DNA of 25,699 bases. Origin: a virus. This document shows positions 18,672-23,836 of this stretch, one piece after another. Made by a program: the position numbers and the translations under genes. Position 1 is the stretch's first letter. Each line of letters starts with the position of its first letter. Location: the IMG/VR virus record IMGVR_UViG_3300008262_006604, positions 1-25,699 of that record; one strand, written 5' to 3'. The notes under the pieces are model-generated. The model was not told the DNA's origin, did not search any database, and worked only from the letters and a program-made list of their open reading frames with translations.

Positions 18672-19401
18672 CCCCATTAAACGTAAGTTAGGCATATCGT
18701 TCTTCGAGCATTTTGCAAGAAAAGAAGCTCTCAGAGAAGGCTTGGAAATTTCGTATGGTTCAAATAGCCTGAAGGCTGCTTTGTTCAGCTCATTCAAAAA
18801 TTATATCGTAGAAGTAGAAGACATTCCTTTAGTTCAAACAACAAAGCCGTACAAATTTGGTGTACCCAACACCGTTACGATTGTTGTAAAGAATGCGGGA
18901 TCTTTTAAAGAAAAATCCGACGAATTGAACAGAATACTAAATCAGCAAGGATATTTTATTGTAAAACAAGAAACTGTTGGAGAGGATGTGGACTTGTATC
19001 AATTCGAACCAAAGTATTCCGTAACAATCAGCAAGAACGAGATCGAATCTTTTCGAGTATTTCATGTTGCAGAAAAAGACAGAAAAGAAAAAATATTAAA
19101 ACTTGGTTTAATTCCTAAGGATTCTAGAACTAGCTTCAAACACAAAGGAAACAGAATTTATTTGTTTGTAACCAACGAACCACAAAAGTATGTTCCCAAC
19201 CTTTTGAAGACGCTTTCTAAAAGAGTTAATGAAGAAGAAGCTGAAGTTCAAAAAGATATGATTGTTTTTGAAATAGACAAAAAAGGAATTTCAAGCGAAG
19301 ATCTGTATCTTGACGAATCTTTTGATTTTAAACCAGATTATTATGCAGTATTTACGCTGCATCCAATTAGATCAAATTATATAAAAATTTATGAAAACTA
19401 A
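18652..19401 (+). CDS. Putative ADP-ribosyltransferase-like protein, function unproven
   Basis: This is a 249-residue protein starting at ATG 18652, inside the end of the previous gene. The N-terminal half (1-125) is unrecognised. The C-terminal half has an order of motifs like the ADP-ribosyltransferase/RNA 2'-phosphotransferase fold: FRVFHVAEKDRKEKILKLGL (134-153), a His-containing first strand followed by a helix and GLIP; then RIYLF (168-172); a VFEID strand (205-209); and a final strand TLHPIRSNYIKIYE. H138 and Y170 would be candidate NAD-contacting residues. T4-like phages use ADP-ribosyltransferases to modify host RNA polymerase or to act on RNA, so such an activity is plausible here. 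This is a pattern judgement only; a catalytic Glu cannot be fixed. It overlaps nrdB by 11 bases. Confidence 0.5.
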   Translation: MKTMKYNPIKRKLGISFFEHFARKEALREGLEISYGSNSLKAALFSSFKNYIVEVEDIPLVQTTKPYKFGVPNTVTIVVKNAGSFKEKSDELNRILNQQGYFIVKQETVGEDVDLYQFEPKYSVTISKNEIESFRVFHVAEKDRKEKILKLGLIPKDSRTSFKHKGNRIYLFVTNEPQKYVPNLLKTLSKRVNEEEAEVQKDMIVFEIDKKGISSEDLYLDESFDFKPDYYAVFTLHPIRSNYIKIYEN

Positions 19402-20380
19402 TAGACCTAAAATATTTGAAGAACAAATTGCTAGAAAACCAAACCATTTTTCTTGGACAGACTCGTTCGTTGAAAGTATACAAAACGGATTTTGGACGCA
19501 CAGAGAATTCAACTTTAAGTCGGACATCCAACAATTTAAAGTCAATCTAACGGATCAGGAACGAGATATTATTATCCGCACGCTTTCTGCTATTGGACAA
19601 ATTGAAATTGCTGTAAAAACATTCTGGGGAAAGCTCGGAGAGAATTTGAGATTTCCAAATTTTTCTGACCTAGGTTATACTATGGCCCACACAGAAGTCA
19701 TTCACAATAATGCTTATGAGCGTCTTATTGATGTATTAGGCTTAAGTGAAGTGTTTGAAGAAAACTTAAAACTCGATTGGATTCAAGGACGTGTTAACTA
19801 TCTTCGTAAATATACACACAAGTTTTATAAAGATTCGAAAAAGCAGTATCTTTATGCTATTATTCTGTTTACTTTGTTTGTTGAGAACGTTTCGTTGTTT
19901 AGTCAGTTTTATATTATTAATTGGTTTGCGAGGTTCAAGAACGTGCTCAAGGATACTGATCAACAAGTGAAATATACTCGCAATGAAGAAAACCTACATG
20001 CTTTGATTGGTATTAAAATTATCAATACCATTAGAGAAGATTATCCAGAAATGTTTGATGAGGAGCTTGAGCAAAAAATTCTTCATGAAGCAGAAGAAGC
20101 ATACAAGTCCGAAGCAAAGATTGTTGACTGGATGATTAACGGCATCCAAGAAGAAGGATTAACTGCTCCAATCCTTAAAGAATTCATTAAGAATAGAATC
20201 AACGAATCACTAAAACAAATTGGTTTTAAAACGGTTTTCGAAGTTGATAAAGAGCTTTTAAAGACTACAGTGTGGTTTGATGAAGAATTGCTTGGAGAGA
20301 ATGCGACGGATTTTTTTCATAGCAGGCCGGTTTCATACGCTCGGTCTAATCAATCATTTTCTGAAGACGATTTGTTTTAA
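19391..20380 (+). CDS. nrdB: Ribonucleotide reductase class I, small subunit
   Basis: This is a 329-residue protein, ATG at 19391, overlapping the previous stop by 11 bases. It generates and stores the radical used by NrdA to reduce ribonucleotides for phage DNA synthesis. Metal ligands can be placed as E72 (AIGQIEIAV), E102 and H105 (HTEVIHNNAY), E165 (LFVENVSLF), E200 and H203 (NEENLHALIG). Y109 is at the position of the E. coli Tyr122 radical. The first ligand is Glu where E. coli has Asp. The tail SFSEDDLF is the expected NrdA-docking end. No N-terminal ATP cone is present. The order nrdB before nrdA is opposite to T4. It is separated from nrdA by one frame-broken unknown gene and the homing endonuclease. 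Confidence 0.93.
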   Translation: MKTNRPKIFEEQIARKPNHFSWTDSFVESIQNGFWTHREFNFKSDIQQFKVNLTDQERDIIIRTLSAIGQIEIAVKTFWGKLGENLRFPNFSDLGYTMAHTEVIHNNAYERLIDVLGLSEVFEENLKLDWIQGRVNYLRKYTHKFYKDSKKQYLYAIILFTLFVENVSLFSQFYIINWFARFKNVLKDTDQQVKYTRNEENLHALIGIKIINTIREDYPEMFDEELEQKILHEAEEAYKSEAKIVDWMINGIQEEGLTAPILKEFIKNRINESLKQIGFKTVFEVDKELLKTTVWFDEELLGENATDFFHSRPVSYARSNQSFSEDDLF

Positions 20381-20383
20381 GAT

Positions 20384-20869
20384 ATGAGTAAATCAAACGC
20401 TCGGAACAAAGATTCTAAAAAGCTGGAGCAAATCTACGAAGCAATTCGTAGCGTTGATTACTTTGTTAACGACGAGAAAAAGTTTGAATGGAATAACTTT
20501 GAAAAATTACACGTCGAAAATTTCAATTATAATTCTTTAAATCCCGAACTTGAATACTTTTTAGAAAGCTTCGAAAAAATTAAATCTGCTTCGCCAACGA
20601 AACATGGACAAGAAGATGTTTATGAGGTTGTGCTTCATAACGGGTTAAAATTTTATTTACATATCAATTTCATCCAACCTTCAGAGACTAAAGAATTCAT
20701 TCAAACAAAAATTGTTAATGCGGAAATTAAAAATCAAAACGAAGCATTAGCAGACTATCAAAAGCATTTTTCAAATATTGAAAAAAATGAGTTGATTTGT
20801 ATGTACAAAAAAGGTCGGAATGTCATCAAAGGAACTTTTTGTAACTCTAAAGAACGCGTTGTTGGATAG
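20384..20869 (+). CDS. Unknown phage protein, N-terminal part (frame break near 20808-20820)
   Basis: This is a 161-codon frame, ATG at 20384, 3 bases after nrdB. Residues 1-140 read as a soluble alpha/beta protein (EDVYEVVLHNGLKFYLHINF; NIEKNELICMYKKG). After the A6 run at 20807-20812 the sequence of this frame looks unnatural (RNVIKGTFCNSKERVVG), while the +1 frame continues with MSSKELFVTLKNALLDS, the text expected from similar phage proteins. I therefore think the real gene is 20384-21056, about 223 residues, with one extra base or a +1 shift. No known domain or catalytic motif is visible. It lies between nrdB and nrdA, which hints at a role in nucleotide or DNA metabolism, but only by position. 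Confidence 0.65.
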   Translation: MSKSNARNKDSKKLEQIYEAIRSVDYFVNDEKKFEWNNFEKLHVENFNYNSLNPELEYFLESFEKIKSASPTKHGQEDVYEVVLHNGLKFYLHINFIQPSETKEFIQTKIVNAEIKNQNEALADYQKHFSNIEKNELICMYKKGRNVIKGTFCNSKERVVG

Positions 20870-21056
20870 TATGTCAACTAAAAGCTGGAATGATATCAAA
20901 GCTATCGGCGCCAGAGTTAACATTGATGAAAACAAAAGAACCAATTTTTACAAATTTTTATTTCGAAAGTTTTTTAGCGATAGACTTCCGAATATTTTTG
21001 AGGATAGTGAAACAGAATCAGATAAAAACCTCAAACTAGTTTTTGCAACAAAATAA
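20820..21056 (+). CDS. Unknown phage protein, C-terminal part of the frame-broken gene
   Basis: This is a 78-codon frame beginning with ATG at 20820 (MSSKELFVTLKNALLDS), overlapping the previous frame by 50 bases. The content (SWNDIKAIGARVNIDENKRT, NFYKFLFRKFFSDRLPNIF) is a plausible globular end of a longer protein. It joins smoothly to ICMYKK of the preceding frame if one base is dropped from the A6 run. There is no Shine-Dalgarno site before 20820, so separate translation is less likely than one continuous gene. It ends 6 bases before the original nrdA start at 21063. Confidence 0.6.
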   Translation: MSSKELFVTLKNALLDSMSTKSWNDIKAIGARVNIDENKRTNFYKFLFRKFFSDRLPNIFEDSETESDKNLKLVFATK

Positions 21057-21062
21057 TAATTT

Positions 21063-21209
21063 ATGACCGAAAAATACTACTGGCTTAACAAAGACTCACG
21101 AAAATTTCAAAAGAAATTATATAATACCGGCATTGTATTGCTTAAGTATTTCTGTGAAAAGAAAATATCAAAAAAGACTATCCGTAAGCAAGCTAGATAC
21201 ACCTACTAA
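21063..21209 (+). pseudogene. nrdA: Displaced original 5' end of nrdA (48 codons, only the first 15 nrdA-like)
   Basis: From ATG 21063 the reading frame gives MTEKYYWLNKDSRKF, the expected beginning of a short NrdA. After codon 15 it turns into unrelated sequence and stops at TAA 21207-21209. The same beginning (TEKYYWLNKDS) reappears 1.1 kb downstream at the start of the intact nrdA (22181). The homing endonuclease gene lies between. The simplest reading is that the endonuclease inserted a few codons into nrdA and left this 5' stub. The stub may still be translated as a 48-residue peptide and may help ribosomes reach the endonuclease frame, which overlaps it. Confidence 0.75.
21066..21098 (+). 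repeat. Direct repeat copy 1: nrdA codons 2-12 (original 5' end)
   Basis: These 33 bases encode TEKYYWLNKDS and match 22190-22222 at 27 of 33 positions. The longest exact stretch is 15 bases, GAAAAATACTACTGG (21069-21083). All six differences are synonymous. Confidence 0.85.
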
Positions 21210-22189
21210 AGAATTTTATGTGTATTGTCTATATTACTCAGAAACCCAAGAAGATGCAAAATATACAGAAGATCGAGTGTTTTATATAGGCAAAGCTAAA
21301 GCAAAATTATTTCCTTGTTTAAGAAGAGAAAATAAACACATACAAGATGCATATTACGACAAACAACGAGCTCATTTTCCAAAATCTAGAAAAATAAGAA
21401 AGCTTTTAGAAAATAATTGTTTTATCATGTCAAAAATTTTACAAGAATATGATACAGAAGTTGAATCGTTTTTAGGAGAAATTAAATGGTTCAAGTATTT
21501 CGAAAACAAAAATATAAAACTTACAAACATAGCCGAATGTGGAGTTCAGGGTGTAGGTAGCGGCGTTTCTCATCCGAGCTATAATCACGAAATACGTCAA
21601 CACTCCAACGAAATATGTAATTTATATGAAAATCATCTATGGTCTATGGACAGACTTAGCAAAAAATATAATTGTTCTAGTAGAACCATAAAATCTATTC
21701 TTAACGAAAACAAAATTTCTTTACGAGAAGATGCGATTAGAAACCCTATTTGGTTAAAAAAAGAGGAAATATTAAAAAAATATGATGAAGGATATTCGTT
21801 AAATCAATTAGCAATAGAATATAAAGAATATTCCGCTAATGTGAATTTTTATTCTGATATGCTAACAAAGTTGGGCCGCACTATACGTCAAACAGCAGAG
21901 TATAAAAGATCCGGTGCCTGGAAGCACGCTCAAGAAATTATTGGCAAGTACAACCAAGGGATTTCAATTAAAGAGCTTTGTTCACAATACAGCTGTGATT
22001 GTTCAGTTATTGACGGAATTTTTAAGAACAACAATGCAACAAAAAGAAAAAACAACCGGTCGTGGGTATGGAATTATGCTCATGAAATAATCGAGCTCAA
22101 AAAACAAAAATACACTATAAAACAAATAGCTGCAAAATATAGCGTTTGTGTACAAGTTATAACAAAAATATTAAAACACTATGAAAACA
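21106..22189 (+). mobile_element. Homing endonuclease gene insertion in the 5' end of nrdA (boundaries approximate)
   Basis: The inserted stretch starts where the nrdA stub stops resembling NrdA (after codon 15, about 21107) and ends where NrdA sequence resumes (22190). It carries one GIY-YIG endonuclease gene and no visible terminal repeats or transposase. It does not behave as an intron, because nrdA codons are duplicated on both sides and the downstream gene has its own ATG. It is more A-rich than nrdA, which fits separate ancestry. Confidence 0.65.
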
Positions 22190-22194
22190 ACTGA
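21133..22194 (+). CDS. GIY-YIG homing endonuclease with four C-terminal helix-turn-helix repeats
   Basis: This is a 353-codon frame with no suitable ATG; TTG 21133 or GTG 21154 are possible starts. The first in-frame ATG would remove the catalytic domain. The GIY-YIG nuclease is at residues 28-132: YVYCL (GIY strand), FYIGKAK at 50-56 (YIG strand), Arg64/65 in CLRREN, Glu116 in FLGEIKWF, and KLTNIAE at the end. Residues 160-353 hold four related helix-turn-helix units (about 160-197, 212-250, 268-300, 318-350; for example DRLSKKYNCSSRTIKSIL and KQIAAKYSVCVQVITKIL), expected to read a long DNA target. Such enzymes cut an allele lacking the gene and spread by repair; Aeromonas phage Aeh1 has the comparable mobE in nrdA. 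The final codons overlap the new nrdA start by 14 bases. Confidence 0.88.
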   Translation: MYCLSISVKRKYQKRLSVSKLDTPTKEFYVYCLYYSETQEDAKYTEDRVFYIGKAKAKLFPCLRRENKHIQDAYYDKQRAHFPKSRKIRKLLENNCFIMSKILQEYDTEVESFLGEIKWFKYFENKNIKLTNIAECGVQGVGSGVSHPSYNHEIRQHSNEICNLYENHLWSMDRLSKKYNCSSRTIKSILNENKISLREDAIRNPIWLKKEEILKKYDEGYSLNQLAIEYKEYSANVNFYSDMLTKLGRTIRQTAEYKRSGAWKHAQEIIGKYNQGISIKELCSQYSCDCSVIDGIFKNNNATKRKNNRSWVWNYAHEIIELKKQKYTIKQIAAKYSVCVQVITKILKHYENN

Positions 22195-23836
22195 AAAATA
22201 CTACTGGTTAAATAAGGATTCAGTCGCCTTTTTAAAAAGAGGTTATTTGCTTGAAGGAGAAGAGCCAATACAGAGATTTAAAGATATAGCACAAACTGCT
22301 GAAAAATATTTAAACATCAATGGATTTGCTGATAAGTTTGAAGACTATTTGTCTCGAGGATTTTATTCAATTAGCTCCCCAATCATTTCTAACTTTGGAA
22401 GAAAGCGCGGACTCCCGATCAGTTGTTTTGGTTCTTATATTTCCGATACAATGGAATCAATATTACACAAGGTTGCTGAAGTCGGTATTATGACCAAGCA
22501 TGGTGGAGGAACTTCTGCTTACTTTGGAGATATTCGTGGTAGAGGTACTCCAATTTCATGTGGAGGAGAATCTACTGGTTCGGTTCACTTCATGGAACTT
22601 TATAACAAGTTAATGAATGTGGTTTCCCAAGGCAATGTTCGCAGAGGTTCTTTTGCTGCATATCTTCCCATCGACCACAAAGATATTGAAGAATTTCTTG
22701 AGATTCGTTCTGAAGGCCACGACATTCAAGAAATGTCATTTGGAGTATGTGTTTCTGATCAGTGGATGAAAGATATGGTTGCTGGAGACAAAGACAAGCG
22801 CAAGATCTGGTCGAAGGTCATTAAGAAGCGCTTTGAGTCTGGATATCCATACATTTTCTTTTCGGACACGGCTAATAACAACGCTCCTCAAGTTTACAAA
22901 GACAAGGGATTAAAGATTTATAATTCCAATCTTTGCAGCGAAATTTTTCTTTCTAACTCAGAAGACGAGTCATTTGTTTGTGATCTGTCGTCACTTAATC
23001 TCGAAAAGTGGGATGAAATCAAAAATACAGATGCTGTACAAACATTAGTGTACTTCCTCGATGCAGTCATGTCAGAATTTATCGATAAGACGGAAGGCAT
23101 GCAATTTATGGAAGCTCCAAGAAAGTTTGCTATTAATCAAAGAGCTCTTGGAGTAGGTGTTCTTGGTTGGCATTCTTTGCTCCAATCTAAGATGATTGCT
23201 TTTGAGTCATTTGATGCAAAGATGCTTAATGCAGATGTTTGGAAGACAATCCGGGAACGAGCTGACAAAGCGACAGAAGAGCTTGCGAAGCTTTTTGGAG
23301 AACCAGAATTGCTCAAAGGTTATGGAAGAAGAAATACTACAACTTTAGCAATTGCGCCCACAACCAGTTCGGCTTTTATCTTGGGCCAAGTATCCCAATC
23401 GATTGAACCTTACAATTCAAACTATTATGTTAGAGACCTCGCTAAAGGTAAATTTTCATACAAAAACCCATACCTCAAGACTCTATTAAAACAAAAGAAT
23501 AAAGACAATGATGAAACCTGGACTTCAATTCTTGCTCATGGTGGTTCTGTTCTGCATCTTGATTTCTTGTCAGATCATGAAAAAGATGTATTCAAAACTT
23601 TTGGCGAGCTTTCCCAAAAAGAAATCGTCATTCAAGCGGCACAAAGACAAAAATACATCGATCAAGGTCAGTCATTGAACGTAATGATCCCTCATGACGC
23701 AAAGCCAAAAGACGTCAATGAGCTTTTGATCTTTGGTTGGGAACAAGGAATTAAAAGTTTCTACTACCAAAAGAGTACAAATCCTGCACAGAAACTAGCT
23801 CGTTCAATTCTGACTTGTAAATCTTGTGAAGGTTAA
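22181..23836 (+). CDS. nrdA: Ribonucleotide reductase class I, large subunit (short form)
   Basis: This is a 551-residue protein, ATG at 22181, and the gene is complete. It reduces ribonucleoside diphosphates with NrdB. Active-site residues are present: C82 (PISCFGSY), N250-x-C252-x-E254 (SNLCSEIF), C267 (FVCDLSSLNL), the radical-transfer pair Y528-Y529 (SFYYQ), and the C-terminal cysteines C546 and C549 (TCKSCEG) that are re-reduced by a thioredoxin-type partner. It lacks the roughly 90-residue N-terminal ATP cone of E. coli NrdA; C82 corresponds to E. coli C225. The start codon and first residues (MKT) come from the end of the inserted endonuclease gene, followed by TEKYYWLNKDS, a copy of the original 5' end. 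There is no Shine-Dalgarno site; translation is probably coupled to the endonuclease stop. Confidence 0.95.
   Translation: MKTTEKYYWLNKDSVAFLKRGYLLEGEEPIQRFKDIAQTAEKYLNINGFADKFEDYLSRGFYSISSPIISNFGRKRGLPISCFGSYISDTMESILHKVAEVGIMTKHGGGTSAYFGDIRGRGTPISCGGESTGSVHFMELYNKLMNVVSQGNVRRGSFAAYLPIDHKDIEEFLEIRSEGHDIQEMSFGVCVSDQWMKDMVAGDKDKRKIWSKVIKKRFESGYPYIFFSDTANNNAPQVYKDKGLKIYNSNLCSEIFLSNSEDESFVCDLSSLNLEKWDEIKNTDAVQTLVYFLDAVMSEFIDKTEGMQFMEAPRKFAINQRALGVGVLGWHSLLQSKMIAFESFDAKMLNADVWKTIRERADKATEELAKLFGEPELLKGYGRRNTTTLAIAPTTSSAFILGQVSQSIEPYNSNYYVRDLAKGKFSYKNPYLKTLLKQKNKDNDETWTSILAHGGSVLHLDFLSDHEKDVFKTFGELSQKEIVIQAAQRQKYIDQGQSLNVMIPHDAKPKDVNELLIFGWEQGIKSFYYQKSTNPAQKLARSILTCKSCEG
22190..22222 (+). repeat. 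Direct repeat copy 2: codons 4-14 of the intact nrdA
   Basis: These bases encode TEKYYWLNKDS like 21066-21098, but with different codons for Thr, Leu, Asn, Lys and Asp. After the repeat the two copies differ in protein as well (RKF in the stub, VAF here). Confidence 0.85.

Follow-up and report, generated by a model that had tools for sequence, protein, structure and literature searches.

The nrdB-nrdA locus and its repeated gene start

The window, a 25,699-nucleotide (nt) virus record from an uncultured phage (IMGVR_UViG_3300008262_006604, positions 1 to 25,699), carries a predicted free-standing homing endonuclease gene between nrdB and nrdA, and the 5′ end of nrdA occurs on both sides of this gene. 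The order on the plus strand is nrdB, a frameshifted spacer open reading frame (ORF), a first nrdA start (copy 1), the nuclease ORF and a complete nrdA that opens with a second start (copy 2). By nrdA body, the closest relative is L001, a 217-kb contig (93% at the amino-acid (aa) level overall). The features of the locus are as follows:

19391..20380, plus strand: nrdB, ribonucleotide reductase small subunit (Pfam Ribonuc_red_sm, E = 1.8e-44)
20384..21056, plus strand: resident spacer ORF, frameshifted, in two pieces (20384-20869 and 20820-21056), with a homologue in L180
21063..21107, plus strand: copy 1, a 15-codon stump of the resident nrdA 5′ end (MTEKYYWLNKDSRKF); nearest uninterrupted start in L001
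21108..21153, plus strand: upstream flank of the nuclease; left junction directly past ...CGAAAATTTC, from comparison with L001, L082 and L015
21154..22194, plus strand: predicted free-standing homing endonuclease gene, with a GIY-YIG-like N-terminal domain and several helix-turn-helix (HTH) units
22181..22390, plus strand: copy 2, imported nrdA 5′ tract, codons 1 to ~70; SVAF for SRKF, Ile for Trp69
22391..23836, plus strand: nrdA body of the resident lineage, sister to L001 (100% tree support)

The window nrdB shares 97% aa identity with that of L001, and an intact 230-aa homologue of the spacer ORF lies between nrdB and nrdA in L180 (49% aa identity over 132 aa). The complete nrdA (22181-23836) encodes 551 aa with a Pfam barrel domain (E = 4e-97), and the stop codon of the nuclease ORF overlaps its start (ATG at 22181). 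Because nrdA is complete downstream and its 5′ codons are present twice, a group I intron or intein splitting nrdA was ruled out.

The nuclease ORF is open from a TTG at 21133 and runs to 22194, with a GTG start at 21154 that was placed by alignment with the ATG starts of its homologues. Two further family members were found in viral contigs: L015, with 43% aa identity, and L082, with 52-53%. Each occupies the nrdB-nrdA spacer in the same orientation and ends before a complete nrdA. In all three phages the gene is a separate spacer ORF outside any intron or intein, and the family is present in some alleles of the locus and absent in others, with co-conversion seen in the change-points of L015 versus L149 and L157 (below). 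No member beyond the three was recovered from genome contigs or by single-sequence queries of viral contigs, tblastn of GenBank phages returned no homologue of the window nuclease, and a PDB sequence search with it gave nothing useful. The L082 homologue matches PF01541 (GIY-YIG) above the curated cut-off (E = 3e-5, 24.7 versus 22.6 bits). The window and L015 proteins have no PF01541 match; they share an FYVYCL...FYIGK motif and, further downstream, Arg, Glu and Asn at invariant positions. No intein domain appeared in the Pfam results for the window nuclease.

Two nrdA starts of different ancestry and a shared breakpoint

As the initial annotation had noted, the peptide TEKYYWLNKDS is encoded by both 21066-21098 and 22190-22222, with 6 of the 33 bases differing, all synonymously; the differing bases fall in Thr, Leu (two bases), Asn, Lys and Asp codons. 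In a search of the 4.6-kb region for direct repeats, this pair ranked first by length (33 nt, 82%, spacing 1124). The repeat reflects homology rather than chance, since copy 1 and the L001 nrdA start agree in 38 of 42 nt, and copy 1 comes immediately after a spacer ORF of the kind that precedes nrdA in L180. L001 is the nearest match to copy 1, tied with L012, and copy 2, identical to copy 1 at 30 of 42 nt, comes only about 50th in the same ranking. From its ATG at 21063, copy 1 is homologous to nrdA until the similarity stops abruptly after ...CGAAAATTTC (about 21107), and its reading frame then continues through unrelated residues to a stop at 21207-21209.

That all differences are synonymous depends on the chosen limits of the segment. 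The codons directly after the repeat are CGA AAA TTT CAA (RKFQ) in copy 1 and GTC GCC TTT TTA (VAFL) in copy 2, so that the protein changes from SRKF to SVAF just outside, and the starts upstream also differ (MT versus MKTT). Of 8,128 pairs of related nrdA alleles (128 alleles), 311 differ at six positions in the 11 codons, and 7% of these are all-synonymous; for the 8-codon YYWLNKDS core, the share among pairs that differ at five positions is 33%. Given these statistics and the RKF and VAF residues outside the segment, synonymous differences are ordinary for separately inherited alleles of a conserved peptide, and the statistics led us to reject the recoding as something special. It had been proposed that the synonymous recoding was selected to protect the target from the endonuclease, but the pattern resembles ordinary divergence of two alleles under purifying selection. 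Moreover, the differences of the imported tract include amino-acid replacements (R15V, K16A and W69I), and the putative cleavage region near codon 70 would lie ~150 nt downstream of the repeated segment.

Copies 1 and 2 have separate histories. Between the window and L001, nrdA nucleotide divergence is 0.363 up to codon 70 and 0.132-0.133 beyond, with a change-point at codon 70 (2-log-unit support 69-81; 0 of 300 permutations). In the first version of the 5′ tract tree, window copy 2 grouped with L015, L082 and L105 (97/96), and the approximately unbiased (AU) test rejected a pairing of window copy 2 with L001 in this tract (p = 2e-5). In the nrdA body tree the window and L001 were united with 100% support, and the bodies rejected a clade of L015, the window, L082 and L105 (p = 4e-45). 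The different nearest relatives, the change-point and the conflicting 5′ and body trees identify copy 1 as the resident start and show that copy 2 begins with an imported tract. The trees thus bear out one part of the initial interpretation, that recombination associated with the endonuclease gene brought in one copy from another nrdA allele: the two copies do not pair as recent sisters, and the copy 2 tract groups with endonuclease-linked alleles and not with L001. The other part, protective synonymous recoding, found no support.

The same break is found beside the other family members. Both L015 and L082 have a mosaic nrdA, and across carriers the breaks fall at codons 69-74. L015 is the cleanest case, ~38% diverged before the break and 0.5-1.7% after it from both L149 and L157. 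Compared with L149, in which nrdA directly follows nrdB without a nuclease, L015 differs by 0.377 in codons 1-69 and 0.017 beyond (break 69-70), with zero differences in codons 70-165; compared with L157, which has another putative nuclease, of NUMOD3 type, in its spacer, it differs by 0.375 and 0.005 (break 73-74). L082 differs from L094 by 0.376 and 0.151 (break 70-73). The tract of L082 also occurs in L105 (4.5% apart), on another backbone and without this nuclease, with a break at 70-73 against L029.

A comparison of 270 allele pairs with body divergence <0.20 indicates that the N-terminal region of nrdA is not simply fast-evolving. The 16 largest 5′ excesses all came from a carrier tract (window, L015, L082 or L105) set against another allele; the top 14 carrier-tract pairs lie at about 0.14 to 0.36, and the largest excess without a carrier tract is 0.125. 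The common location of the three family members, their mosaic nrdA genes, the shared breakpoint and the two ancestries of the repeated starts are direct observations.

Elsewhere in nrdA, L105 and L025 show 17% divergence up to about codon 354 and none from there to the end; this second sharp recombination break is unrelated to codon 70.

The carriers also differ from most alleles at residue 69. Trp69 is found in 124 of the 128 nrdA alleles, the exceptions being the window, L015, L082 and L105, and residue 69 is Ile or Val in all three carriers. A Fisher's p of 1e-5 for carriers versus Trp69 takes no account of shared tract ancestry and should not be read as a probability. Since TGG is the only Trp codon, no synonymous change could remove a site that contains it, and replacement of Trp69 may be a better candidate for protection than the synonymous changes.

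Homing with gene-end replacement and its alternatives

We consider it likely that the window is the outcome of intronless homing with gene-end replacement by a free-standing GIY-YIG-type endonuclease in the nrdB-nrdA spacer. The endonuclease would cut a nuclease-free nrdA near codon 70, in the region SSP[IV]W[SA]NFG..RGLPISC, ~200 bp downstream of its own gene, and the break would be repaired from a donor that supplies both the endonuclease gene and its own cleavage-resistant nrdA 5′ end. The imported tract may plausibly resist the nuclease. On the right side, repair would rejoin the resident nrdA body just past the break, and on the left it would run on through the donor's 5′ tract and then its endonuclease gene; the product would be a complete chimeric nrdA in which codons 1 to ~70 come from the donor and the others from the resident. 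Free-standing endonucleases of T4 are reported to cut hundreds or thousands of bp from their own genes, with co-conversion (PMC2988022).

The left join would explain the repeat. In the window it would lie within the resident nrdA, past codon 15, so that the old start was left as a stump (copy 1); in L015 the left join is at the nrdB stop, and hence no remnant of the old start is present. The window join may have relied on a homologous stump that the donor already carried, comparable to a proposal for the yeast WHO elements (PMC7282813), or may have been illegitimate.

Several points weigh against this interpretation. Cleavage, the cut position, the resistance of the tract and the route of the left join are steps that we infer. 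The AU test leaves L015 with L149 and L157 unrejected in the short 5′ tract (p = 0.106), and the stump and left junction are known from one contig only, with no donor carrying that junction found. The assignment of the window protein as GIY-YIG-like comes from its own motif and the L082 homologue; its AlphaFold model is poor (mean predicted local distance difference test (pLDDT) 69.5, predicted template modelling score (pTM) 0.34), and Foldseek with this model returned nothing useful. A pattern scan for Ile or Val alleles led us to reject the Trp69 change as an exclusive mark of carriers: 10 further non-Trp contigs had no match to the nuclease family (an eleventh was L015's own), in a list that is incomplete because the scan missed the L082 and L105 contigs despite a local pattern match. 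One non-Trp allele, L180, with the family not detected nearby, has the 5′ tract closest to copy 2 (0.197). The grouping of carriers as their own 5′ tract clade was lost after further non-Trp alleles were added; the 12 non-Trp alleles then share one side of the tree, where a single change of state accounts for them, and this side is weak when codons 66-70 are removed (support 50/68).

The first of four rival explanations is a recombination hot spot, in which phage nrdA alleles often cross over at the conserved motif of codons 71-82 and the nuclease hitchhikes. Codons 71-82 are highly conserved, the 3′ ends of nrdB are mosaic too, and L105 and L180 have such tracts without this nuclease, although tract-only transfers as in L105 are also expected as by-products of homing. 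We nevertheless consider a hot spot unlikely: the 5′ excess never exceeds 0.125 outside the carrier-tract group, below the range of the top 14 carrier-tract pairs, and the break occurs in all three known family members.

A second rival reverses the polarity, such that the window and L180 keep the ancestral tract, L001 received a foreign one, and the stump and nuclease are a later unit upstream of an unchanged nrdA. L180 fits this order, since its homologous spacer ORF leads straight into a copy-2-like nrdA start and this nuclease is absent, but it is the more distant relative (body divergence 0.266, versus 0.132 to L001). The clade of window and L001 bodies is nested among SRKF/Trp69-type starts, and the near-identical L149 and L157 share the other tract against L015, so there it is the nuclease carrier that is derived. 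On this evidence reversed polarity is quite improbable.

An assembly chimera, with copy 1 artificially joined to the nuclease region of another phage in the sample, is very unlikely: while the stump junction comes from a single metagenome-derived contig, the nuclease and a chimeric nrdA occur together independently in L015 and L082, copy 1 directly follows the spacer ORF at the position where the L180 nrdA begins, and the left side of the window is that of a normal relative of L001. We give scarcely any credence to an in-place duplication, in which the nrdA start was doubled at nuclease insertion and then changed by synonymous drift or resistance-selected recoding, since the purely synonymous differences of the 33-nt repeat that speak for it are set against different nearest relatives of the copies, a divergence of copy 2 that spans 70 codons with many amino-acid changes and an abrupt end, the same tract break in L015 and L082 (both without the repeat) and the rejected pairing of window copy 2 with L001. 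Chance, or duplication followed by drift, is ruled out by the different nearest relatives and the tract structure.

The distribution of residue 69 raises a broader possibility. In the nrdA body tree, unlike the 5′ tract tree, the non-Trp trait needs six changes, and a single non-Trp clade is rejected (p = 1e-30), a pattern that would fit a resistant class of gene starts moved between backbones; a possible alternative is a functional NrdA variant that spread for other reasons. Five Ile69 nrdA alleles (L171, L175, L176, L177 and L178) have an insert directly after Cys82, which in L177 matches intein-splicing and LAGLIDADG families, and none of 66 distinct Trp69 contexts checked has an insert there. 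We tentatively suggest, as a possibility that we hold to be somewhat doubtful, that two long-lived classes of nrdA 5′ ends exist, a sensitive Trp69 class and a resistant non-Trp69 class, the latter spread by several homing elements at codons 70-82 that replace the gene start: a free-standing nuclease here, and an intein at Cys82 in other phages.

In a different part of the gene, about 0.8-1.1 kb of other sequence, probably a further intein or intron, interrupts nrdA near codon 252 in L170, L173 and L174.

Related systems and significance

Leftover gene ends also occur on the nrdB side of the spacer. In L001, nrdB is followed by a 567-aa ORF (L001:1258-2961; Pfam DUF723 and, below threshold, a restriction-endonuclease-like family). 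Its last residues, NNQSFSEDDLF, duplicate the end of NrdB and form the mirror image of the window stump; next comes a spacer ORF starting with MSK, as the window spacer ORF does. In L103, a NUMOD3-type putative nuclease (L103:911-1639) continues in frame at its C-terminus into a duplicate of the NrdB end (SQSFDESDLF). Among 43 loci whose spacer measures 100 nt or more, only the window, L001 and L103 are clear stump cases. The last ~55 codons of nrdB are mosaic among the otherwise close L015, L157, L149, L025, L029, L094 and L105 (0.6-0.9% versus 18% for L157 and L015 compared with L149), and the adjacent spacers of several of these mosaics hold different putative nucleases. For L001 the excess at the nrdB 3′ end is small (0.096 versus 0.152) and no more than hints at import of its nrdB end.

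Processes of this kind are known, both from free-standing phage endonucleases with co-conversion and from gene-end replacement in WHO elements and fungal mitochondrial ORFs. For the WHO elements of Torulaspora and Lachancea, homing has been proposed to replace the end of a host gene with the resistant donor version, leaving a fragment of the recipient end beyond the nuclease gene and conflicting 5′ and 3′ gene trees, and both cleavage and the resistant allele were shown by experiment (PMC7282813). The phage locus resembles them in having a nuclease gene beside an essential gene and a chimera of recipient and donor ends. However, WHO nucleases are intein-like proteins that contain a zinc finger, and the FBA1 end that they replace is the 3′ one, whereas the phage protein is GIY-YIG-like with HTH units and associated with the nrdA 5′ end. 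Unlike for WHO, cleavage and resistance in the phage are deduced, and two of the three phage carriers (L015 and L082) lack the recipient fragment that the window retains beyond the nuclease. With Pfam GIY-YIG (in L082) and HTH matches and no intein domain, the phage element would be WHO-like in action but not by descent.

Other systems share single aspects. The T4 pairs SegF/gene 56, SegG/gene 32 and MobE/nrdB (PMC2988022) likewise combine a free-standing spacer gene with a distant target in a neighbouring essential gene and co-conversion, and MobE itself sits in the T4 nrdA-nrdB spacer. The window differs in that its putative target is the nrdA 5′ region and its nuclease has no tblastn homologue in GenBank phages, and the passages of PMC2988022 consulted do not mention a host-gene stump for T4-like free-standing endonucleases. 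In the Aeh1 nrdA locus, which also carries a homing endonuclease (mobE), nrdA is split into two pieces and the enzyme still works (PMC2988022), whereas the window nrdA is complete and the fragment left over is a 15-codon stump. The mobile mitochondrial ORFs in atp6 of Glomus and Allomyces combine an endonuclease ORF with a foreign gene end, yielding a hybrid gene and a duplicated native end (PMC3630166); in Glomus the native atp6 C-terminal part differs from that of a close relative by synonymous changes only (PMC3630166). These fungal ORFs differ from the phage case in being mitochondrial, in affecting C-terminal ends and, in the atp6 example, in encoding a LAGLIDADG enzyme (PMC3630166).

What appears to be new is the combination: gene-end replacement in phages, at the 5′ end of a gene, by a family without a detected GenBank phage relative, and three times at one codon. 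No earlier description of this combination in phages was found in the papers that could be searched.

The mosaics call for caution with nrdA and nrdB trees, which mix different histories within a single gene. They also resolve what are probably natural homing events in uncultured phages to a few nucleotides, and the recipient-type and product alleles can be cloned and tested, with Trp69 of NrdA as a specific, testable candidate for an immunity residue. Gene-end replacement, known from yeast WHO elements and fungal mitochondrial ORFs, is suggested to operate in phages too; if the two classes of nrdA 5′ ends are real, bacteriophages would harbor a WHO-like class of elements in which immunity is an amino-acid change at a near-invariant residue with a single codon.

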